A stretch of DNA of 64,000 bases from Anaerolineae bacterium. GTDB taxonomy: Bacteria > Chloroflexota > Anaerolineae > Aggregatilineales > Phototrophicaceae. The notes under the pieces are model-generated. The model made no database searches. It was not told the origin of the DNA and saw nothing but the letters and a program-made list of their open reading frames with translations. Location of the stretch: the NCBI GenBank assembly GCA_022841825.1, contig JALHQT010000007.1, positions 222,957-286,956 of the forward strand, given 5' to 3'. Every line of letters begins with the position of its first letter. Within the stretch, counting starts at the first letter, position 1. Positions 16,411 through 43,133 of this stretch are shown here, one piece after another. Both the position numbers and the translations under genes were made by a program.

Positions 16411-16594
16411 CCCTCACCCCCAGCCCCTCTCCCGACCGCCGCGCATCAAGAGTCTGCAAGCGGCAACCTCCACGCGCGGCTAGGAGAGGGGAGCCAGAAG
16501 AGTCGCCAGGCATGGCGATCTCAAAGCCCCTCTCCCAGGCGTACTCGCCGTTCGGGACGCCGGATGCGGAGCGGAGGCGGGTTTGGGGTGAGGG
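16411..16594. repeat. Palindromic element with CCCTCACCCC/GGGGTGAGGG ends
   Basis: 184 bp with perfect 10-bp inverted ends, CCCTCACCCC at 16411 and GGGGTGAGGG at 16585. The interior has CCCCTCTCC/GGAGAGGGG blocks, like the other members in this window. It lies between the HEPN gene and the membrane protein gene. The gap 16277-16605 holds no other gene I can support. Confidence 0.75.
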
Positions 16595-17151: not shown

Positions 17152-17292
17152 ACTTTCCACATCCGCCTTTTGGCGGATACTTCCGCAATCCCCGTCCATG
17201 CGGTAAAGTAGGATGCAGTAGGGAGATAATGATGGCGCAGCAGGCAGGTGCGAGAGCCAGGGTATTCGCTTCATACCCTCTTTTCCCAGTTT

Positions 17293-17397
17293 ACCCCTCC
17301 CCCAACCCCTCCCCACTCCGCAAGCTGCGTGGAGAGGGGAGCCAGACGAATCTGGAAGTCCCTCTCCACGCCAGTGGGGAGGGATTTAGGGAGGGGT
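17293..17397. repeat. Palindromic element with ACCCCTCCC/GGGAGGGGT ends
   Basis: 105 bp, nearly identical to 31082-31189. It has inverted 9-bp ends, a CTCCCC/GGGGAG core pair and TGGAAGTCCCTCTCC. It lies in the gap between the operators and the DinB gene (17152-17459), where I see no gene. Confidence 0.8.
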
Positions 17398-17459
17398 TAG
17401 AGGGTGGAAATGCTGGGTGTCGATTATACTCGTAGAAAACGCAGGATGGAGTTTCCCCC

Positions 17460-28838: not shown

Positions 28839-29882
28839 CTATCCCAAGACCCTGCGCCGAACAATAACCATCGTCAGCGCCACCGTCAGTGTCACCGCGT
28901 CCAGCGCCTGGTCGCCGCGCAGCCCCGCGACATGCACGACCGTATCCCCCCGCGCGTAACCGATGACGAACATGCCGAACGCGAGGATCGCCAGCGCCAC
29001 ATAAAATGTGCGGGGTGCGAGGTGCGGGGTGCGCCGTAGGGGCGCTGGCGAGTCATCGATTGTTTGTGCGTGGTGCAGGGTGCGGGGTGCGATCAAACGG
29101 GAACCGTGTAGGGGCGCACCCGTGTGTGCGCCCGACTGTAGGGACGAGGCATGCCTCGTCCGCCTCATTCCGACCCACATCATGCCTCCCACCACGCCCA
29201 CCATCATCCCCGCCAGCACCACACCATACAGTGGCGTGTTCCAGCGCGGCGCGGCGATGCCGTACACATCGCGCAGTTCCGCCGTCACCCCCGGCGGATA
29301 GTCCGCCAACGTGCGCACTTCCGCGCCATAAGCACAGCCCGCCGCCGCGCAGCCCACCCACGCCGCCGCCGCTATCCAAGGCAGCGCGAAGGCGAGCAGG
29401 GTATAGGGGATAACCTCACCCCTAAATCCCCTTCCTCGCAGCCCTGCGCTCGGTCGCCGCCCTGGAGAGGGGACTTCCAGAGCGGTTGAGGAAGCCTCCG
29501 GCTCCCCCTCTCCGCGCGCGGAGAGGGGGCTGGGGGGTGAGGTTCGGTTCCTCGGGAGTGAGGTCAAGCGCAGGTACCCCCACATCCCCGCCCACGCCCC
29601 CAGCAGCGCGCCATGCCAGCCCAAGCCGCCGCGCCGTATATCCAGCCCCTGATCGAGATGATCGGCGTAGTAATCCCAGCGCAGCAGCACATGCTCCGCG
29701 CGCGCCAGCAGCAGCCCGCCCAGCAGCCCAACAATACACAGATCGAGCATGGCGCGGCGCTGCCCACGCGGCGCGCGCAGCACCAACAGGGCGATCACCA
29801 CGCAGATCGCGCTGCCGAGCACCAATGTATAGACGGACATCTGCCGCCCAAACAGGGTCACGACCTGTGGAATCTGCACCAA
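28839..29882 (-). CDS. Prolipoprotein diacylglyceryl transferase-like (Lgt) with two in-frame inserts
   Basis: 347 aa. Multi-helix membrane protein with Lgt-like features: IRRGGLGWHGALLGAW near residues 80-97 (the Lgt HGG region) and the later GCAAAGCAYGAEV segment. Lgt transfers diacylglycerol to the lipobox Cys of lipoproteins. Two non-conserved inserts disrupt it: about residues 113-157 (palindromic element 29412-29544) and about 240-293 (repeat cluster 29006-29165). Both keep the frame and lie in loops, so function may survive. TTG start at 29882 (GTG at 29879 also possible). The lipoprotein-binding Arg cannot be confirmed. Confidence 0.65.
   Translation of the reverse strand: MVQIPQVVTLFGRQMSVYTLVLGSAICVVIALLVLRAPRGQRRAMLDLCIVGLLGGLLLARAEHVLLRWDYYADHLDQGLDIRRGGLGWHGALLGAWAGMWGYLRLTSLPRNRTSPPSPLSARGEGEPEASSTALEVPSPGRRPSAGLRGRGFRGEVIPYTLLAFALPWIAAAAWVGCAAAGCAYGAEVRTLADYPPGVTAELRDVYGIAAPRWNTPLYGVVLAGMMVGVVGGMMWVGMRRTRHASSLQSGAHTGAPLHGSRLIAPRTLHHAQTIDDSPAPLRRTPHLAPRTFYVALAILAFGMFVIGYARGDTVVHVAGLRGDQALDAVTLTVALTMVIVRRRVLG
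29006..29165. repeat. Cluster of short repeats and palindromes in lgt-like gene
   Basis: GGTGCGGGGTGCG-type heptamers at about 29009-29030 and 29074-29090; palindrome 29112-29133 (GGGCGCAC/GTGCGCCC); palindrome 29142-29161 (GGACGAGGC-AT-GCCTCGTCC). The last is the same core as the terminator at 26909-26946. All lie inside the coding frame without a stop. Confidence 0.75.
29412..29544 (-). repeat. Palindromic element in lgt-like gene, TIR AACCTCACCCC
   Basis: 133 bp with perfect 11-bp inverted ends (29412-29422 and 29534-29544). On the coding strand it is translated as TSPPSPLSARGEGEPEASS and onward, ending in RGFRGEV. Its length is 3n+1. Its internal orientation is opposite to the copies in the MmeI-like gene, yet the frame is open either way. 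Confidence 0.85.
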
Positions 29883-31059: not shown

Positions 31060-31081
31060 CAACACGTAGGGACGCAACTTA

Positions 31082-31189
31082 ACCCCTCCCCCAACCCCTC
31101 CCCACTCCGCAGGCTCCGTGGAGAGGGGAGCCAGAAGCATCATCTGGAAGTCCCTCTCCACGTCAGTGGGGAGGGATTTAGGGAGGGGT
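31082..31189. repeat. Palindromic element, second copy of the ACCCCTCCC type
   Basis: 108 bp, nearly identical to 17293-17397. Inverted 9-bp ends ACCCCTCCC/GGGAGGGGT, and the shared core TGGAAGTCCCTCTCC. It lies in the gap between the convergent SPFH and recF genes. The two copies are 13.8 kb apart. Confidence 0.85.
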
Positions 31190-31229
31190 CATTCGCTGCA
31201 AACGTATTCTGTATGATGCTGCGCCCCTC

Positions 31230-35769: not shown

Positions 35770-38424
35770 ATGTCTCAACTCCTGTTTTATCTGCGCTATG
35801 CCGCGCGCAACCTGCGGCGCAACCTGCGCTGGACACTCTTCGCCATCTTCTGCATCGCCGCTGGCGTGGCGACGATTGTCGCCCTGCGCTCGCTGGGTCT
35901 GGCGATTGGCGATTCGCTGGTCGGCAGCGCGCGCGATAGCATTCGCGGCGACATCACCATCACCGCGCCGGGCTTCGGCGGCAGCTTTGGTGCCTTCGGC
36001 GGCAGCGACCGCGACCGCGACATCCTCTCGCAAAACATGATCGATACGGTCACGCGGCGCGCCGAAGCGCTCGGCGGGCAGGCATCCGCCTATTCCGTCT
36101 TCGCCAATCTGCAAATCACGGCGGTCGATGCCGTCACGGTCGGGCGTCCGCAGTTCGTGACGACGATCATGATCGACCCGCTGACCTTCCCGCCGACCGG
36201 CGACATCCTGGCGGAAGAACCCGCAGGCGCTGCGCTGCGCACGCTCTTCAAGGACAACGCCATCGTCATCAGCCGCAACCTGGCAGATCAGCAGGGCTTG
36301 AACGTGGGCGACACGGTGCGGGTGAGCGGCAGCGACGAGGTCTTCATCGTCGCGGGCATCGTCGCCACCGAGCAGGAAGCAGGCTTGCGCAACCTGTTTG
36401 CTTCGTTCTTCGGCTTCGCCTACCTCGACCGCGCGCAGGCAGAGCGCCTGGGGCTGAACCCGCAGCCGAATGCCATCAGCATCACCGTCCCGGAAGGCAC
36501 GGACATCCCGGCGCTCGCCGCCGAGTTTCGCCCGCTGGTACGCGGCGGCGACATGGAAACCGTGACCGAGGTGCTGGAAGAGAACACGCTGATCTCGGAT
36601 GTGATCGGGCGCTTCATCGTCATCATGGGCTTGGGCGCGCTGCTGATCGGCGGGATTGGCATCATCAACACGATGCTCGTCATGGTCGGTCGACGGACGA
36701 TGGAAGTCGCGGCGATGAAAACCTTCGGCTTAAAAGGCAGTCAGGTCGGCTCGCTGTTCCTGGCGGAAGCCTTCCTGCTCGGCATCCTGGGCAGCCTCGT
36801 CGGCTGTGTGATGGGCGTGCTCCTCAGCGGCGCGGTCAACGCCTATGGCGAGGCGTTCCTCCAGCAGCGGCTGCCCTGGCGCATCTACCCGGAGGCGCTG
36901 CTCTACGGTGCCGGGCTGGGCATGGTCGTGACGATGGTCTTCGGCTTGCTGCCCGTGCTGACCGCCAACCGCATCCGCCCGGCGGTGATCCTGCGCCCGA
37001 ACGAGGCGCAAATCCCCGGCACGAGCATCTTCCACGCGCTGCTCGTCCTGATGATCGTCGTGATCGTGGTCGGCGGCATCGCCGGGCAGATCATCGGCAA
37101 TGTCTGGGTCGGCATGATCGGCGTAGCGATCACGCTGATCATCATCGGAATACTGGTCGCGCAGTTGTGGCTGATTGTGTGGTTCGTCGGCAAGCTGCCC
37201 ACCTTTGGCAATGTCGATGGCAAGCTGGCGCTGCGCAATCTGTCGTCGCGGCGGCTGCGCACGGCGACCACGCTGATGGCACTCAGCGGCGGCATGTTCG
37301 CGCTGTCGTCGATCACGTTCGTCGGCGTCGGCACGCGCGAAATCCTCAACTTCCAGCTCACACAGCAGCTTGGCGGCAATGTCATCGTCTTTCCGATTGC
37401 CAACTTCATCGGCGGCGGGCTGGGGTCGGGCATTCTGAACACCCAGCTTAATACGATGGAAGGCATCACCTATCGCACCGAAGTGGTCAACTACGTCGCC
37501 GACGTGGTCGCGGTTGATGGCGAACGCCCGCGCCTGAACCTGAATATCCCCTCCTTTGTGCTGGAGAACATGCCAGAAGAGGCAATCCAGGACATGCAGC
37601 AGGAGCTGGACGAGATCAGCATCCGGCTGGAGGTGCGCAATACCGATAACCCCAGCCCGGTCGGCAATGTCATTCAGGGGCGCGCGCTGACGCTGGAAGA
37701 TCGCGGGCAGCGGGTGATGGTCGCGCCGCAGCAGCAGGCGCAGCTTTATGGGATGCAGCTCGGTTCGATTGTCACGATGCAGGAGGACGGCGAACGCCTG
37801 AACTTCGAGGTCGTCGGCATCAGCGAGGACAGCCAGCTCGGCTTCAACAGCGGCGGCTTCATGATCCCGCCCGACTCAATCCGCCTGAACCCGGATGTCA
37901 GCTTCTTCATCCTGCAAGTCGAAGCCGAGCGCCTGAACGAAGTCCTGCTGGCGCTGACGCGCAACCCGCTCAACTTCGCGCTCGACATCTCGTTCATCGA
38001 CACGCTCGTCTCGCGCGTCATCAACCAGTTCAGCGCCATCCCGACGATTGTCGGCTTGCTTTCGCTGCTGGCGGCGGCGGTGACGATGGCGAACACTGTC
38101 TCGCTGGCGACGCTGGAGCGGCGGCGGCAGATCGGTGTGCTCAAGGCGGTGGGTTTGAAGAGCGACCGCGTGCTGGGCGTGATGCTGATCGAGAACACGA
38201 TCATCGGCTTGCTCGGCGGCGGGCTGGGCATCGGCTTGAGCGCGCTGGGCGTGGCGCTGATGACGCAGCTTGGCACCGGCATCGCGATCCCAATCCCGCA
38301 GGACGCCGTGCCCATCGCGCTGCTGCTGATCGTGGCGGCGGTTGTGATCGCCTGGGTTGCCACCTTCCTGAGCGCGCTGCCCGCCGCGCGCGAACCCGTG
38401 ACGAGCGTGCTGCGGTACGAGTAG
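35770..38424 (+). CDS. ABC transporter permease, FtsX/MacB-type with two FtsX domains
   Basis: 884 aa. N-terminal membrane helix, a large outside domain, then a block of helices (about residues 275-480), a second outside domain (~480-750) and a second FtsX block with the last helices near 760-875. Such permeases couple an ATPase to mechanotransmission for lipoprotein or antibiotic export. No ATPase gene is adjacent, so the partner is elsewhere. GAGG precedes the ATG. Confidence 0.85.
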   Translation: MSQLLFYLRYAARNLRRNLRWTLFAIFCIAAGVATIVALRSLGLAIGDSLVGSARDSIRGDITITAPGFGGSFGAFGGSDRDRDILSQNMIDTVTRRAEALGGQASAYSVFANLQITAVDAVTVGRPQFVTTIMIDPLTFPPTGDILAEEPAGAALRTLFKDNAIVISRNLADQQGLNVGDTVRVSGSDEVFIVAGIVATEQEAGLRNLFASFFGFAYLDRAQAERLGLNPQPNAISITVPEGTDIPALAAEFRPLVRGGDMETVTEVLEENTLISDVIGRFIVIMGLGALLIGGIGIINTMLVMVGRRTMEVAAMKTFGLKGSQVGSLFLAEAFLLGILGSLVGCVMGVLLSGAVNAYGEAFLQQRLPWRIYPEALLYGAGLGMVVTMVFGLLPVLTANRIRPAVILRPNEAQIPGTSIFHALLVLMIVVIVVGGIAGQIIGNVWVGMIGVAITLIIIGILVAQLWLIVWFVGKLPTFGNVDGKLALRNLSSRRLRTATTLMALSGGMFALSSITFVGVGTREILNFQLTQQLGGNVIVFPIANFIGGGLGSGILNTQLNTMEGITYRTEVVNYVADVVAVDGERPRLNLNIPSFVLENMPEEAIQDMQQELDEISIRLEVRNTDNPSPVGNVIQGRALTLEDRGQRVMVAPQQQAQLYGMQLGSIVTMQEDGERLNFEVVGISEDSQLGFNSGGFMIPPDSIRLNPDVSFFILQVEAERLNEVLLALTRNPLNFALDISFIDTLVSRVINQFSAIPTIVGLLSLLAAAVTMANTVSLATLERRRQIGVLKAVGLKSDRVLGVMLIENTIIGLLGGGLGIGLSALGVALMTQLGTGIAIPIPQDAVPIALLLIVAAVVIAWVATFLSALPAAREPVTSVLRYE

Positions 38425-38449
38425 GTGAAGGGGATTGAGAGGGTGAGGT

Positions 38450-41400
38450 TTAACCTCGCCGCAGGTTTTCCGCCAGCAGGCGGCGCAGGAGTTCCTCGTC
38501 GCCTTCCGGCGTACGCAGCTTCTCCGCCAGGTCCTCCCAGCCATAGGCGGCGAGCACTGCGCGATCGAGCGCGTCGTGCAGCTCTGCCAGACGGGGCGCG
38601 AAATCGCGCGCCGCTTTGACGAGCTTGGGAGATTTAACCTCACCTCTGCCAGAGACCTCACCCCCCTGCCCCCTCTCCGTGTACGGAGAGGGGGAGTCGG
38701 AGGCTTCCTCGACTGCTCTGGAAGTCCCCTCTCTGTACACGGAGAGGGGATTTAGGGGTGAGGTTCCTGCATTTAGGACTGAGGTTATACGATGCGCTTG
38801 TAAGGCGTTGTAGAGGTTGGTCAGCGTGCGCTCGGCGATTGCCTTGCTCTTGTCTTTGCTGTCGAGGATGTAGACATCAAAATCGGGCGGGTTGAGCCAC
38901 ACCTCGCGTTCTTCGTGGAGCGCTTTGGCGGCGGCGCTGATGGCGGCATGATGCGGGCTGCTGGCGTCTTCTTTGCCGGGTGTCCAGGGGAAGGGGAAGG
39001 TCTCGAAGGTGGTCGTCGGGGTGTAGCGCGGATCGTTGCCTTTGCCGAGCCACGTCCCCATACGCAGCGACCAGCACTCATGCAGATACGAGTGCAGCAC
39101 GCCGAAGAAGTAGTCGTCCTGGCGGGCGAAGGTCACAACTTGACCATCGGGGAGGGTCTGAGGATTGAGCCAAACAAACAATCGATGTTTCGCTACTCTT
39201 GCTGTACCAATGTAACGGGAAAGTCCAATTATGGCGTTTCGATAATCAGGGGCGGGTCTCGCGTGTAGCCACCATTTATTACGCTCATTGCTATTACGAA
39301 CGAGGTCTCTAGCGGGCTTAACATGTTGCCTAACATAATCCATTGGCAATACATACTCTGAAGCAGTGTTTTCAGGCATATCCGTGCCGAAATCGATGAT
39401 CCACATATTGCGCGGACGTTCTGTAATGTCTAGACCATTTATCCAGCGTCGCAGAACTTCTCGATTGTTTCGACCGCTGGGATTAGGTGCATCGATCATC
39501 TTCATTGCAACTTCGTCACTGATGTCAAACGATCCTTTTTTCATACCGCCAATAAACGCTATACGGGAGTTTTCTTGGAGTGATTTTGAAATGATGACAT
39601 CCGTGCTTGCCGTTAGATCAGCTGTTATGTTTCTTGTCGTCTTGCCATCAAGCCGTTTGTCAAGATTTTCACCGCCATCGAACCCAACAATCGAAATGCG
39701 AACCGCTGCGCCCTCTAGCGTCCAGGGATTGTCCGACCACGCCATGAAGATGTCGCCAGACTCTTTGATTCGCTTGAGGACTTCACGGTTCGCGCCGCCG
39801 CGGATGGAGTTGGTCGCCAGCAAGCCCGCACGCTTCGCATTGCCCGCCGCGATGTGCGCCCGCGCTTTCTCGAACCAGTAGGTCACCAGGTCTGCACCGC
39901 CGGGGACGCGCCCATCATAGAGCTTGCGCAAATCGCTCACATAGTGAGCGCCCATCTCGCCAAGCATCTTGCTGCCCCCCAGGAAGGGCGGGTTGCCCAC
40001 GATGACATCGACGGCGGGCCAGTCAGGCTCGTAGGGCGAAGAGACCTCACCCCCCGACCCCCTCTCCGTGTACAGAGAGGGGGAGTCAGAGGCGCCCTCG
40101 TCTGCTCTGGAAGTCCCCTCTCCGCGCGCGGAGAGGGGATTTAGGGGTGAGGTTCCTACCGGATTTAGGGGTGAGGTTCCTGCATGTGCGGGTGAGGTTC
40201 CTGCCGGATCTAGGGATGAAGTTTCCTTCAACGTCAGCCGCAGCTTCGCCAACACTGAAGGCATGTCCCGCAGCACCTCGTCGTTACGGAAGCGCACCAC
40301 TCGGAAGCCCATCGACTCGAGGAACTCCGTACGCAGCGCATCTTCCTCGACCGTATAATCGTGAATGTCGCCATCCACTTCCACGATCATGCGCGCTGCG
40401 TGGCAGTAGAAATCGACGATGAACTTTTCAATCGTGTGCTGACGACGGAATCGATACCCGTCAATGCCGCGATTGCGTACCGCTTGCCACAACGCATCTT
40501 CCGCTGGCGTCGGCACATGACGCATCTGGCGCGCCAAGGGCTTGATGTTCTCCCACAATTCCGGTGGGGTGTACCAGGTGGTCATCCTTTCGACGGTGGC
40601 ATCAAGGTCTGCAACCTCACTCCCCTGCTCCCTGCCGCCAGAAACCTCACCCCCCAGCTCTGTACTGCTAGGAACCTCACCCCCCAGCCCCCTGTCGCCA
40701 GAAACCTCACCCCCCTGCCCCCTCTCCGTGTACGGAGAGGGGGAGTCAGACGCGCTCTCGTCTGCTCTGGAAGTCCCCTCTCCGCGCGCGGAGAGGGGAT
40801 TTAGGGGTGAGGTTCTATACCGCATCACGGCGTCATCGCACACGATGCGATCCGGTTCGTCCGGCGAGAGCTTGTCCTTGATGATCGGCACGGGCAGCGC
40901 GCGCGGGTGCGGCGCGCGGTTGAGCAGCACCGGGTGCAGCACGCCTTCGTCTTCGTAGCGCCATTGCAGATAGCCGATCCACACGACGACCTTTGCCAGG
41001 TTCGCCGCGAATTCGTCCTTCTCGATGCCGTACAACTGGCGCGGCGTCACCACATCGCGGAATGGCAAGCCGAGCGGCTCGAACAGCTTGCGCACGCGCC
41101 CTTCCACATCCTTGAGCGCCTTGAGCGCCATGTAGAGGAAGTTGCCACTGCCGCACGCCGGGTCAAGCACCGTCGTGCGCTCCAGCAGCGTCATCATCCG
41201 TTCGTTCAGCGCCTTCAGGCGGTCTTCGGCGGCGGCTTTGGCGCGCGGCGTCTCCGCATGGAGATACGTCTGCATCAGTGGTTCCGCCTCGGCGCGCACG
41301 ACGTCCCATTCGCGGTAGATCGGCTGCATCAGCACCGGGTCGATGACGAGACGAATGTCCGCCTCGCCCGTGTAATGCGCGCCCAACTGCGCCCGCTTGC

Positions 41401-42388
41401 TGATGTCGAGCGCGCCCTCGAAGAGCGTGCCGAAGATCGTCGGGTTGACGAAGCGCCAATCCGCCTCGCTCACCTCGTGGACAAGCTCGACCGCGCCGGG
41501 CACCTGTGTGATGTCCAGCACTTCCAAGCCATCGCCCGCGCCCGGCTTACTCTCGAAAAAGATGCCGCCGTTGAAGTAGGGCGTCGGTTTAAGGATGAAG
41601 GTCTGCCGTTCGCCGTTCATTCCCTCGAACAGCTCCTTCATCGACTGCATGAAGCCGTCCGACTGCGCCTGCGCGTCATCCAGCTTGCGCACGCCTTCGG
41701 TGATGATGTAGCGGAAAACGGGCTGGTTGAACGGGCGCGGCATGATGTCTACGTCTTCGCAGAAGAGCGAAAAGACCAGCTTGGTCAGGAAGCGCGCGAT
41801 CTGCATCGGCTCCCAGGGATGCGCCCCGTCCGCATCGACATGATCGCGCATCAAACCCGCCAGATGCGCGAACTTCTCCGCCAGATGCAGCGTCAGCTTT
41901 TCGCGCGCTTCCAGCTCGGTCTGGCGCAGCTCCTGGAACTTATCGGGTCTTTCCAGCAGCCAGGTGATGTAGCGGCGCGTCTTTTCGTCGAGCAGGTCTT
42001 CGTTCTTGAAGACGAACGGCAGACCACTGGTGTTGACCCACTGCGGGTAGATGCGGTATTCGAGGAAGTCGCAGACCACCAACAGCGGCGGGTTGCCCAG
42101 GTCGCCGCGATAGGCGAGCAGTTGGCTGTAGGCGGCATCCAGGTCTTTGTGCTTGCCTTTGTACTCCCAGGCGAAATGCCCCCTGTACCAGACATCCGCG
42201 CGCCCTTTACCGCCTGTCGCCTTCGTCACCTGCTCTTCAAACGTGAAGAATTCGCCCGCCGGGTCAAGCTGCGCCGGCGTCTTGTGGTGGACAAGTTCAC
42301 ACAGCTCGATGAAGTGGCTTTGCGAACCCTGCTGCTCGCGCAAGGCGCTGTTCGCCCATCGGTCAACGAAATCCTGGGGTGTGATCAT
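38450..42388 (-). CDS. MmeI-like type IIL restriction-methylase, interrupted in frame by repeats and a DUF559 nuclease
   Basis: 1312 aa. The N-terminal endonuclease motif Asp65-x9-Glu75-x-Lys77 (ADVWYRGHFAWEYKG) has the MmeI spacing. Methylase motif I is at Asp409 (DPACGSGN) and motif IV NPPF at Asn799; the target-recognition and C-terminal parts follow. The enzyme would methylate and cut DNA in one chain. Between motifs I and IV, residues ~526-782 are an insert: repeat element D, a DUF559 PD-(D/E)XK domain (~602-719, Asp659, Glu670, Asp672) and element C. Another element (B) sits at ~1201-1252. The recognition region (39170-39790) is visibly AT-rich. Activity with the inserts is uncertain. 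Confidence 0.8.
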   Translation of the reverse strand: MITPQDFVDRWANSALREQQGSQSHFIELCELVHHKTPAQLDPAGEFFTFEEQVTKATGGKGRADVWYRGHFAWEYKGKHKDLDAAYSQLLAYRGDLGNPPLLVVCDFLEYRIYPQWVNTSGLPFVFKNEDLLDEKTRRYITWLLERPDKFQELRQTELEAREKLTLHLAEKFAHLAGLMRDHVDADGAHPWEPMQIARFLTKLVFSLFCEDVDIMPRPFNQPVFRYIITEGVRKLDDAQAQSDGFMQSMKELFEGMNGERQTFILKPTPYFNGGIFFESKPGAGDGLEVLDITQVPGAVELVHEVSEADWRFVNPTIFGTLFEGALDISKRAQLGAHYTGEADIRLVIDPVLMQPIYREWDVVRAEAEPLMQTYLHAETPRAKAAAEDRLKALNERMMTLLERTTVLDPACGSGNFLYMALKALKDVEGRVRKLFEPLGLPFRDVVTPRQLYGIEKDEFAANLAKVVVWIGYLQWRYEDEGVLHPVLLNRAPHPRALPVPIIKDKLSPDEPDRIVCDDAVMRYRTSPLNPLSARGEGTSRADESASDSPSPYTERGQGGEVSGDRGLGGEVPSSTELGGEVSGGREQGSEVADLDATVERMTTWYTPPELWENIKPLARQMRHVPTPAEDALWQAVRNRGIDGYRFRRQHTIEKFIVDFYCHAARMIVEVDGDIHDYTVEEDALRTEFLESMGFRVVRFRNDEVLRDMPSVLAKLRLTLKETSSLDPAGTSPAHAGTSPLNPVGTSPLNPLSARGEGTSRADEGASDSPSLYTERGSGGEVSSPYEPDWPAVDVIVGNPPFLGGSKMLGEMGAHYVSDLRKLYDGRVPGGADLVTYWFEKARAHIAAGNAKRAGLLATNSIRGGANREVLKRIKESGDIFMAWSDNPWTLEGAAVRISIVGFDGGENLDKRLDGKTTRNITADLTASTDVIISKSLQENSRIAFIGGMKKGSFDISDEVAMKMIDAPNPSGRNNREVLRRWINGLDITERPRNMWIIDFGTDMPENTASEYVLPMDYVRQHVKPARDLVRNSNERNKWWLHARPAPDYRNAIIGLSRYIGTARVAKHRLFVWLNPQTLPDGQVVTFARQDDYFFGVLHSYLHECWSLRMGTWLGKGNDPRYTPTTTFETFPFPWTPGKEDASSPHHAAISAAAKALHEEREVWLNPPDFDVYILDSKDKSKAIAERTLTNLYNALQAHRITSVLNAGTSPLNPLSVYREGTSRAVEEASDSPSPYTERGQGGEVSGRGEVKSPKLVKAARDFAPRLAELHDALDRAVLAAYGWEDLAEKLRTPEGDEELLRRLLAENLRRG
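38636..38786 (-). repeat. Palindromic element B in C-terminal part of MmeI-like gene
   Basis: 151 bp (3n+1). Left end AACCTCAC at 38636 with a second partial left end at 38655-38661. Right end GGGGTGAGGTT at 38755-38765, then a degenerate extra right end (GGACTGAGGTT) to 38786. It encodes a Ser/Glu/Arg-rich peptide (GGEV, TSPLNP). It joins two host segments without a stop. Confidence 0.85.
40043..40234 (-). repeat. Palindromic element C with tandem right ends
   Basis: Core 40043-40154 (112 bp), with left end ACCTCACCCC and right end GGGGTGAGGTT. Three degenerate ~20-bp copies of the right end follow up to about 40234. It ends just before the segment encoding the NPPF motif and encodes repeated TSPLNP/TSPAHAG peptides. 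Confidence 0.85.
40235..40585 (-). other. DUF559 endonuclease domain inserted in MmeI-like gene
   Basis: Codons ~602-719 of the MmeI-like ORF. The domain begins MTTWYTPPELWENIKPLA and contains DFYC (Asp659) and VEVDG (Glu670, Asp672), the PD-(D/E)XK-type core of DUF559 (Vsr-like) proteins, and ends with VVRFRNDEVL. It starts with an internal ATG at 40585 preceded at once by AAAGG, so separate translation is conceivable. It is bracketed by elements D and C. Confidence 0.8.
40613..40814 (-). repeat. Palindromic element D with four left ends spaced 30 bp
   Basis: Left ends AACCTCAC at 40613, 40643, 40673 and 40703 are exactly 30 bp apart. The single right end is GGGGTGAGGTT at 40804-40814. Total 202 bp (3n+1). 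The 30-bp units encode 10-residue repeats GGEVSGDRGL, GGEVPSSTEL and GGEVSGGREQ. Confidence 0.9.
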
Positions 42389-42504
42389 CGCGTTCGCCTG
42401 AAGGTCTTACCTGAGAACATGCGGTCTATTATAACGGATACGACCGACTGAGGCGAACGAGTGACCAGGGGAGTGCCGAATATCGAGGATATGCTTCCAG
42501 CCAG

Positions 42505-42582
42505 AACCTCACCCCCGTCCCCTCTCCGCGTGCGGAGAGGGGGGCGACTCTTACGGTTGTCGAGTCTACGCGGGGTGAGGTT
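42505..42582. repeat. Palindromic element H, short form
   Basis: 78 bp with perfect 11-bp inverted ends AACCTCACCCC (42505-42515) and GGGGTGAGGTT (42572-42582), containing one inner CTCTCCGCGTGCGGAGAG palindrome. It is 117 bp upstream of the MmeI-like start codon. The gap 42389-42671 contains no gene I can support. Confidence 0.9.
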
Positions 42583-42671
42583 CATGTCCGCGAAATTCAG
42601 CATTCCCCCGGGCTGGGTTACGGATATGCCGCTTCGGAATAGGCGTATGAGTAGCGGCTTGCCCGCGCCGA

Positions 42672-43133
42672 TCAGACGATCATCGCGTCTGTGATCGCCG
42701 TCGTCAGCCCCGCCAGCTTGTCCGGCGAGACATCGCCGCGCGCGCGCCAGAGGACCTGTCCTGCGCGGTCGAGCAGCATGACCTGAAGGGCATCCAGGTC
42801 GGGAATGTCGAGCGCGCGACAAAAACGCTGCAAATCCGTATACAGGGTGATCGTGGTCTCGCGCGTGTGCTTATCGGGAATCCCCGCGCGCATGCCGTTG
42901 TTGAGCAGCCATTGGCGCAGCGGGTCCCAGCGCGGCAGGGTCGGCAGTTCGTAATAGCGCAGCGGATACTGCCGCGCCAGCGCTTTGATGGCGGGCAGCC
43001 AGCCGTTGACCTGCATCTGCTGCCATTGCTGGAACGCGATCATCACCAGCGTGAGATCGCCCGCGAAAGCGCGGGGCAGGTCAAAGTGCTGCCCTTCGAG
43101 GTTGCTGCCGCTGATAGACGGGAAGGTGGTCAT
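42672..43133 (-). CDS. Thioredoxin-fold protein lacking catalytic cysteine
   Basis: 153 aa. The fold pattern is that of AhpC/TSA or ATP10-like proteins: LEGQHFDLPRAFAGDLTLVMIAF, central helices and a late LQVMLLDRAGQVLWRARGD strand pair. The position of the peroxidatic Cys is occupied by Gln/Trp (FQQWQQ), so peroxidase activity is unlikely. It could be a chaperone-like or binding protein. ATG 43133; a stand-alone gene. Confidence 0.6.
   Translation of the reverse strand: MTTFPSISGSNLEGQHFDLPRAFAGDLTLVMIAFQQWQQMQVNGWLPAIKALARQYPLRYYELPTLPRWDPLRQWLLNNGMRAGIPDKHTRETTITLYTDLQRFCRALDIPDLDALQVMLLDRAGQVLWRARGDVSPDKLAGLTTAITDAMIV

Follow-up and report, generated by a model that had tools for sequence, protein, structure and literature searches.

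A DUF559 nuclease between palindromic repeats inside an MmeI-like gene points to a probable homing-like element that inserts into proteins

An in-frame insert in an MmeI-like gene

We analyzed a 64,000-nucleotide stretch of the genome of an Anaerolineae bacterium (contig JALHQT010000007.1, positions 222,957 to 286,956, assembly GCA_022841825.1; this whole stretch is called the window), in which a nuclease domain of the DUF559 family lies between palindromic repeats inside a restriction-modification gene. The host gene is an open reading frame (ORF) on the minus strand at 38450..42388 that encodes an MmeI-like enzyme of 1312 amino acids (aa) and holds Pfam matches to the MmeI families and to DUF559 in one open frame. 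MmeI_N, MmeI_hel and MmeI_Mtase score above their cut-offs, a match to MmeI_TRD falls below threshold (20.4 bits, cut-off 27), and DUF559 (PF04480) occupies aa 615-718 with an E value of 5.7e-35 and 119.9 bits against a curated cut-off of 20.6. A preliminary description of this DNA had proposed exactly such an arrangement, a DUF559 nuclease between palindromic elements in frame in an MmeI-like methylase; Pfam and repeat searches confirm it, and the methylase motifs sit where that description put them, with DPACGSG beginning at aa 409 and the Asn of NPPF at aa 799.

Alignment with homologues whose loop is empty at this place (such as L178, L188, L195, L174 and L190) delimits an in-frame insert at 40037..40816 on the minus strand, 780 bp or 260 codons long (aa 525-784), that replaces about 5 codons; L178 and L195 read ...RYD-AEGK-PYEPEW..., the replaced residues being such as DAEGK. 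The empty site that the preliminary description had sought among MmeI homologues hence exists, and its length of 772 bp holds for the repeat-delimited part of the insert, the whole being 780 bp when measured against empty homologues.

The insert is laid out as repeat, nuclease, repeat, all in the host frame. By ascending coordinate it holds element C (40043..40154), a 112-bp double-palindrome unit; partial end repeats of the GGGGTGAGGTT type between the nuclease and element C (40155..40220, outer limit approximate; family D7, 40168-40178 and 40189-40199); the DUF559 (PF04480) domain on the minus strand (40235..40546), a nuclease of PD-(D/E)XK or EDxHD-like type with its conserved acidic and histidine residues intact; three partial end repeats of the AACCTCACCCC type at 30-bp spacing (40613..40702; repeat family D8); and element D (40703..40814), a 112-bp double-palindrome unit delimited by repeat and motif searches, with ends AACCTCACCCC...GGGGTGAGGTT, that resembles the hairpin-forming doublets (REPINs) of repetitive extragenic palindromic (REP) sequences. 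Elements C and D share orientation and are 95% identical over 116 nt, and a third copy, element B (38654..38765; 91%), has no nuclease and stands in frame toward the C-terminal end of the host protein. Each 112-bp copy combines ends (A/G)ACCTCACCCC/GGGGTGAGGTT with two inner palindromes, and folding as single-stranded DNA gives z scores between -6.1 and -9.5 (element C, -6.1; element D, -9.0; element B, -9.5). A structural model of the methylase core with its insert (mean predicted local distance difference test, pLDDT, 67.8; predicted template modeling score, pTM, 0.48) supports, and at no finer level than this, a protein in which the nuclease and most methylase blocks would fold separately while the repeat-encoded linkers would be disordered; another low-confidence stretch lies in the C-terminal part of the host.

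Nuclease-free copies and the states of the MmeI loop

The repeats extend well beyond the insert, such that GGGGTGAGGTT (≤1 mismatch) matches 17 times in the window against 0.60 expected and the palindrome (≤3 mismatches) 8 times against 0.02. Nuclease-free members include a short copy directly upstream of the host gene (42505..42582) and another member of this family some 9 kb away (29412..29544). Genome-wide, such palindromes (≤1 mismatch) number 54, against 0 for a reversed control pattern, and the 5.9-Mb genome has a single DUF559 match, so that copies with these ends but no nuclease are frequent (15 such loci inspected); as long frames are also found at random positions, the number of nuclease-free copies within ORFs is uninformative. 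One short nuclease-free copy (L012, G000:C2:522921) is in frame within a 915-aa frame, which presumably encodes HypF.

An MmeI query matched in 47 of 121 genomes, and among the 30 loci fetched, 20 were readable across the loop. Five of these 20 carry DUF559 there (the window itself, which is L166, and L167, L168, L181 and L185); L169, from the same genus as the window, has an in-frame repeat alone, L173 and L177 look similar, and the empty loops include L170, L174, L178, L179, L188, L190 and L195. The preliminary description had reasoned that DUF559 at this same place without repeats would count against a composite unit, and two loci lean weakly that way: in L168 repeats can be read only on the right, and the repeat of L181 is a different one.

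DUF559 inside other genes

Evaluating the window genome together with 60 relatives revealed DUF559 matches in 27 of the 61 genomes, with 17 of the 40 matches of ≥75 bits lying in frames of ≥400 aa, compared with 0 of 20 matches for a Vsr control drawn from 101 genomes (longest frame 238 aa; Fisher p 0.0005). The loci fetched for the survey yielded 141 distinct DUF559 domains scoring ≥75 bits with our own profile, 69 of them in frames of ≥300 aa. Broken down by phylum for the 70 domains kept under the ids of 80 named loci, frames of ≥400 aa held 25/26 in Bacteroidota, 4/26 in Chloroflexota, 1/14 in Cyanobacteriota and 1/4 in the rest. The insertions counted here are those in open host frames.

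Host identities outside the window come from Pfam scans of 17 proteins (E ≤1e-5), and insertion was found in at least 14 different gene families. The hosts include tRNA synthetases and metabolic enzymes (LeuS, IleS, MetH, a pyridine-nucleotide [flavin] oxidoreductase and a CoA-transferase), DNA enzymes (PriA, MutS, RecJ, a UvrD-type helicase, HsdR, two N6/Eco57I-type methylases and another of MmeI type) and others (a SpoIIE/PAS protein, a TIR-NACHT-FGE protein and a DUF1156 protein), with the 17th protein, QueG, carrying DUF559 as an N-terminal fusion. Several host matches continue across the insert or restart after it (MutS_III, DHH, UvrD_C), and Met_synt_B12, CoA_transf_3 and FGE each fall into two stretches in their insert-bearing hosts. 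DUF559 units in housekeeping genes were read at loci from Chloroflexota, Bacteroidota and Cyanobacteriota; the preliminary description had proposed a search for flanked copies within genes of Chloroflexota, and their range is wider than it supposed. Because some insert-bearing genes stand in records not labeled as metagenome-assembled genomes (MAGs), namely Flavobacterium orientale CGMCC 1.12506, Aequorivita todarodis KCTC 62141 and Flavobacterium sp. I-STPP5a, binning artefacts do not explain all of the inserts.

Relatives of the window domain were found in 40 of 72,556 plasmid records, some of them chromosome-sized, and in 3 of 50,697 phage records. On these counts we rejected a plasmid or phage vehicle, and the element seems to be mainly chromosomal because its relatives are so scarce in such records. 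Local arrays of stand-alone copies were also seen in Anaerolineales and Chloroflexi MAGs, with five DUF559 domains in one fetched locus (L137) and three in another (L089). Genome G137 holds ten DUF559 matches, including two SpoIIE-type genes (L229 and L230) with inserts that are 97% identical and apparently in the same place.

Palindromic arms beside the nuclease

We scored an arm as a perfect palindrome with a C/T-only stem of ≥7 within 250 bp of the gene, and tested 136 of the 141 domains, five being too close to a contig end. Such pyrimidine-stem palindromes lay on at least one side of 95/136 DUF559 domains, 0/23 Y1_Tnp loci, 0/19 Vsr loci and 9/300 random places, and on both sides of 53/136, 0/23, 0/19 and 0/300, respectively. 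The enrichment of DUF559 genes beside palindromes, often in frame inside other genes, is thereby borne out as the preliminary description had anticipated. Of the 25 Y1 loci fetched, the 23 tested comprise four from the window genome, which has five, and 19 of the 20 strong matches in relatives; a weak match (L050) and one locus that was too short were left out. In a separate comparison of 300 bp on each side, a left-right repeat pair (BLAST score ≥20) was present at 80/136 DUF559 loci, 2/200 random positions of the same loci and 0/19 Vsr loci.

Read by eye, many of 28 flanks share a common plan of outer C-rich motif, palindrome, nuclease, palindrome and inverted outer motif, with terminal inverted motifs AACCTCACCCC in the window, AGCCCCCC in Flavobacterium MetH and GTCCTCCCC in LeuS of L246 and L268. 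A search of 24 genomes for the Flavobacterium arm found copies in 12, and some of these copies are the arms of MetH inserts. Arm-pattern matches averaged 11.5 in the 25 relatives with a strong DUF559 match and 2.3 in the 36 counted as DUF559-free (p 0.001), where the 36 include two genomes (G021 and G043) with weak or partial matches and where this and the following p values ignore kinship among genomes. Flavobacterium arm copies were likewise more numerous in 9 genomes with a filled MetH site than in 15 with an empty mid-site (p 0.001, or 0.005 after removing the insert's own arms). Because the counts in relatives include the arms of DUF559 itself, palindrome copy number gives weak support to a link with the nuclease.

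Conservation and fold of the nuclease

Four residues, D45, E56, D58 and H62, are invariant in all 141 DUF559 domains; the peptide pattern by which 70 of these rows were found includes E56, D58 and H62, and in the 71 pattern-free rows (38 of them in long frames) the same four are invariant in 71/71. The ratio of nonsynonymous to synonymous substitution (dN/dS) was 0.06-0.27 in 10 of 14 pairs, those with computable dS, and 0.06-0.15 in the 7 long-frame pairs, synonymous sites being saturated in the other four. To judge from these substitution patterns, the nuclease is under purifying selection after insertion.

The top Foldseek match to the model of the window domain (pLDDT 85) was 3hrl, an endonuclease-like protein of Neisseria; I-Bth0305I, a homing endonuclease (3r3p; ranks 2-3, E about 1e-4, TM 0.70-0.75), came next, followed by mitoribosomal chains and, at rank 6, Vsr (E 0.018). 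We read D45, E56, D58 and H62 as a putative EDxHD motif. We take YcjD to be a DUF559 protein. A passage of one study treats YcjD as a PD-(D/E)XK member (PMC1189080), a passage of another assigns a DUF559 gene to the EDxHD homing family (PMC9403480), and the homing families have been reviewed (PMC3943268, in part). In Caulobacter, the part of PMC12907096 that bears on this describes VsrA as holding a DUF559 domain, as functionally linked to a cytosine methylase and as needed for a DNA damage response that arises when a methylase is absent.

Recurrent insertion in LeuS and MetH

For LeuS we evaluated the family of an Allomuricauda MAG (L101), in which 118 of 120 genomes match the LeuS query, and read 30 loci: the loop before the editing domain holds DUF559 in 3 and none in 27, and each insert-bearing LeuS is the only match to the query in its genome. 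For MetH we took the genus of Flavobacterium orientale, where the query matches 234 of 249 genomes; the 30 loci fetched gave a mid linker that is filled in 5 and empty in 24 of 29 readable cases, with a second, C-terminal site (C site) filled in 1 of 13. A host tree built from the flanks forces four state changes at the mid linker. The filled genes are without about ten linker codons, and four of the five share their junctions (ATT, ATA or GTT followed by AGCCCCCC on the left; GGGGGGCT followed by GGT or GGA on the right), with L285 retaining a few extra codons at the left junction.

Inserts that share these junctions differ by up to 29% in DNA. Because the inserts of L293 and L278 are 75% identical in DNA and yet agree in their junctions, with nearly identical arms, the mid site seems to have been used by at least two nuclease lineages. 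As far as such alignments go, recurrent filling of the linker with near-equal junctions is consistent with cutting of, and copying into, an empty allele. One MetH gene (L209) holds two DUF559 copies, at the mid and C sites, that are sisters on the nuclease tree (support 100/92) with a synonymous divergence of 0.86. On that tree, which has 141 rows, host labels change at least 41 times, where the minimum possible is 19 and shuffled labels need 66.8; L202 is carried there as a C-site copy although it is really at the mid site, so that per-site MetH counts are off by one row.

No target-site duplication was seen by eye when the 5 filled MetH linkers were set against the 24 empty ones (DNA of 5 filled and 7 empty). 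A DDE-type insertion sequence was rejected, as host linker codons are replaced without duplication and the only nuclease-type families in the inserts are DUF559 and its relative MTES_1575. Other repeat families without DUF559 also stand in frame in the LeuS loop (L259, L271) and the MetH C-site loop (L283, L297, L304); they are of the GTCATTCCGAGCGAAGC type, and one codes for TTDNRQPTT.

Relation to known systems

Comparison with described elements revealed partial likeness to several. As in inteins with homing domains, the nuclease lies in frame inside essential proteins at recurrent positions; unlike inteins, no splicing domain was found here and the fused protein presumably works with the insert retained. 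Pfam scans gave no Hint or intein family in the window protein (E ≤0.1) or in 17 other proteins (E ≤1e-5), six loci gave no Rfam match at gathering scores, and window positions 38000-43000 gave 11 Rfam matches, all below gathering scores and with no intron among them. Inteins and group I or group II introns were accordingly rejected, there being no splicing domain in Pfam and no intron in Rfam. Among EDxHD homing endonucleases, I-Bth0305I (PDB 3r3p; discussed in part of PMC3943268) is the closest characterized enzyme by fold, and recurrent host-gene sites with empty alleles in relatives are a shared feature. The DUF559 unit differs from them in being found without an intron or intein, in its palindromic inverted ends and in its dispersed nuclease-free end copies.

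With the system of REPINs and REP-associated tyrosine transposases (RAYTs), also called the REPtron, it shares an enzyme gene between palindromes and many short gene-free copies that form inverted-pair hairpins, whereas its enzyme is a PD-(D/E)XK-type nuclease and not an HUH Y1 transposase, and it often lies inside ORFs. No GTAG tag was read by eye at the palindrome ends (AACCTCACCCC in the window, AGCCCCCC in Flavobacterium, GTCCTCCCC in LeuS of L246 and L268). Rickettsia palindromic elements (RPEs) and intragenic REPs are alike in placing palindromes in frame in housekeeping genes, in presumed loops; passages of PMC10969869 and PMC3733652 name tRNA synthetases and DNA repair genes among RPE hosts and a recB insertion at about the same site in two species, and the former describes in-frame fusions. 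Nuclease-free in-frame copies such as element B and the repeat in L169 resemble RPEs in this respect, and genes with in-frame repeats are presumably still functional; the DUF559 unit departs from RPEs in holding its own nuclease and in its different ends. The Vsr and VsrA repair nucleases belong to the same fold family (PMC12907096, in part), but Vsr (PF03852) has neither palindromic arms (0/19) nor long frames (0/20). In the full-text literature of PubMed Central, which leaves subscription journals mostly outside, no description of an in-frame DUF559 element with palindromic arms was found.

A probable homing-like element of proteins

We consider it likely that these units are selfish, homing-like mobile elements of proteins that have palindromic inverted ends, encode a nuclease of EDxHD/Vsr type and survive as unspliced domains in loops. 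The preliminary description had suggested that a composite and possibly homing-like unit moved into the gene and left it intact, and the empty site, the palindrome enrichment and the recurrence in other genes all support this. A broader claim, toward which we incline only slightly, is that they form a distinct class across phyla, a spliceless protein-invading homing element whose arm deletion products seed REPIN-like palindromes independently of RAYT transposases. The unit would consist of the DUF559 nuclease with an arm on either side, and each arm would combine a terminal inverted motif with a pyrimidine-stem palindrome. Because the unit is open in the nuclease frame within genes, in-frame insertion into a flexible loop would give a fusion that is neither spliced nor lethal, and the fusion protein would function without splicing. 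The nuclease may cut the empty loop, or DNA near an arm, and repair from an element-bearing copy would paste the unit in, guided by homology either to the flanks or to arms dispersed in the genome. The two arm palindromes could then recombine, which would remove the nuclease and leave short REPIN-like copies, while the nuclease would otherwise persist as a domain on disordered linkers inside essential enzymes; the tandem end repeats and the nested REPINs seen in the window may have arisen when arms were later cut and repaired again. The earlier suggestion that the nuclease drives the spread of the repeats by cutting and repair fits the evidence in this form.

Several observations weigh against this account. 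Slightly more than half of the domains (72/141) lie in frames of <300 aa, 41/136 copies are without a pyrimidine-stem palindrome within 250 bp, and 43/136 fail both repeat criteria of the left-right flank test. Some genomes that have no strong DUF559 match hold palindromes too (20 in G032, 13 in G047), and the palindrome excess drops to p 0.03 or 0.19 when 2 or 4 own-arm matches are subtracted per DUF559 copy. No target-site consensus was established, and the shared MetH junction could come in part from gene conversion of a filled allele. Host sites are moreover clustered on the nuclease tree, the 21 LeuS rows needing 5 changes against a shuffled mean of 19.9, and for this reason many copies would be inherited or site-bound and not freely hopping: hosts change often, yet copies are also clustered by site. 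Cleavage and movement, finally, are steps that we infer from sequence.

The palindromes might instead be ordinary REP/REPIN or terminal inverted repeats (TIRs) moved by a Y1 (HUH) transposase of the RAYT or TIRYT kind, with DUF559 a passenger caught between two copies. A Y1_Tnp match (E ≤0.001) is present in 47 of the 61 genomes, the short copies resemble REPINs, and in the window genome a palindrome of the window family lies about 900 bp from one Y1 gene (L046), which also counts against our preferred account. A passage of PMC3733652 reports tyrosine transposases surrounded by TIRs that have a GGGGWSAS motif, and by our reading the window motif GGGGTGAG fits it. This explanation is nevertheless improbable in our view, and RAYT mobilization is not favored for the pyrimidine-stem repeats, since those palindromes lie within 250 bp of none of the 23 Y1_Tnp loci as against 95/136 for DUF559; other palindromes were present at 11/23 Y1 loci. 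Three Y1 genes of the window genome (L046, L048 and L049) were also viewed individually, and some stand near other palindromes (such as GCTTGAGGCTCAAAGCCTCAAGC) that perhaps belong to a separate REP family.

A further explanation, which we judge unlikely, is that insertion-tolerant loops gather any repeat, DUF559 units having arrived through rare illegitimate recombination and horizontal allele exchange with a nuclease that plays no part. It would accommodate the other repeat families in the LeuS loop (L259, L271) and the MetH C-site loop, the disordered repeat-encoded linkers of the window model and the clustering of host sites on the nuclease tree, but it leaves unexplained that nuclease and palindromes are tightly paired, that MetH junctions recur with nearly identical arms between inserts up to 29% different in DNA, and that the nuclease is under purifying selection. 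That DUF559 is simply a useful extra domain of restriction-modification and repair enzymes, with repeats merely gathering in the linkers, is very improbable: many hosts are indeed DNA enzymes (MmeI, HsdR, N6 and Eco57I methylases, MutS, PriA, RecJ, a UvrD-type helicase), and the tie of VsrA to a cytosine methylase in Caulobacter (PMC12907096, in part) would suit it, but hosts also include LeuS, IleS, MetH, QueG, a CoA-transferase and a flavin oxidoreductase, related domains sit in different hosts (the 41 label changes on the tree) and empty homologues are common.

In-frame palindromic repeats are already known in bacteria from RPEs and intragenic REPs, and at least one group of such repeats is said, in a passage of PMC3733652, to lack a dedicated transposase; what is new here is a candidate enzyme, DUF559, for one large group. 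A homing-like DUF559 element would have a lifestyle between those of homing endonucleases and REP elements, and its distribution suggests that a selfish nuclease can persist without splicing in essential proteins, even in the only LeuS gene found in a genome. If this is true, a domain so far without a known function would gain a role, and the versions of LeuS, MetH, PriA and MutS that carry inserts would be accounted for.

Other repeats in the window

At 38436-38460, where the host gene has its stop codon, stands a single isolated GGGTGAGGTT end motif. The window also holds a second repeat family, CTCC...GGAGAGGGG with a GGGGAGGG part, at 16468-16504, 17290-17410 and 31079-31202 (D12-D14), and a tandem array with a 120-bp period at its very start (1-406; D1).

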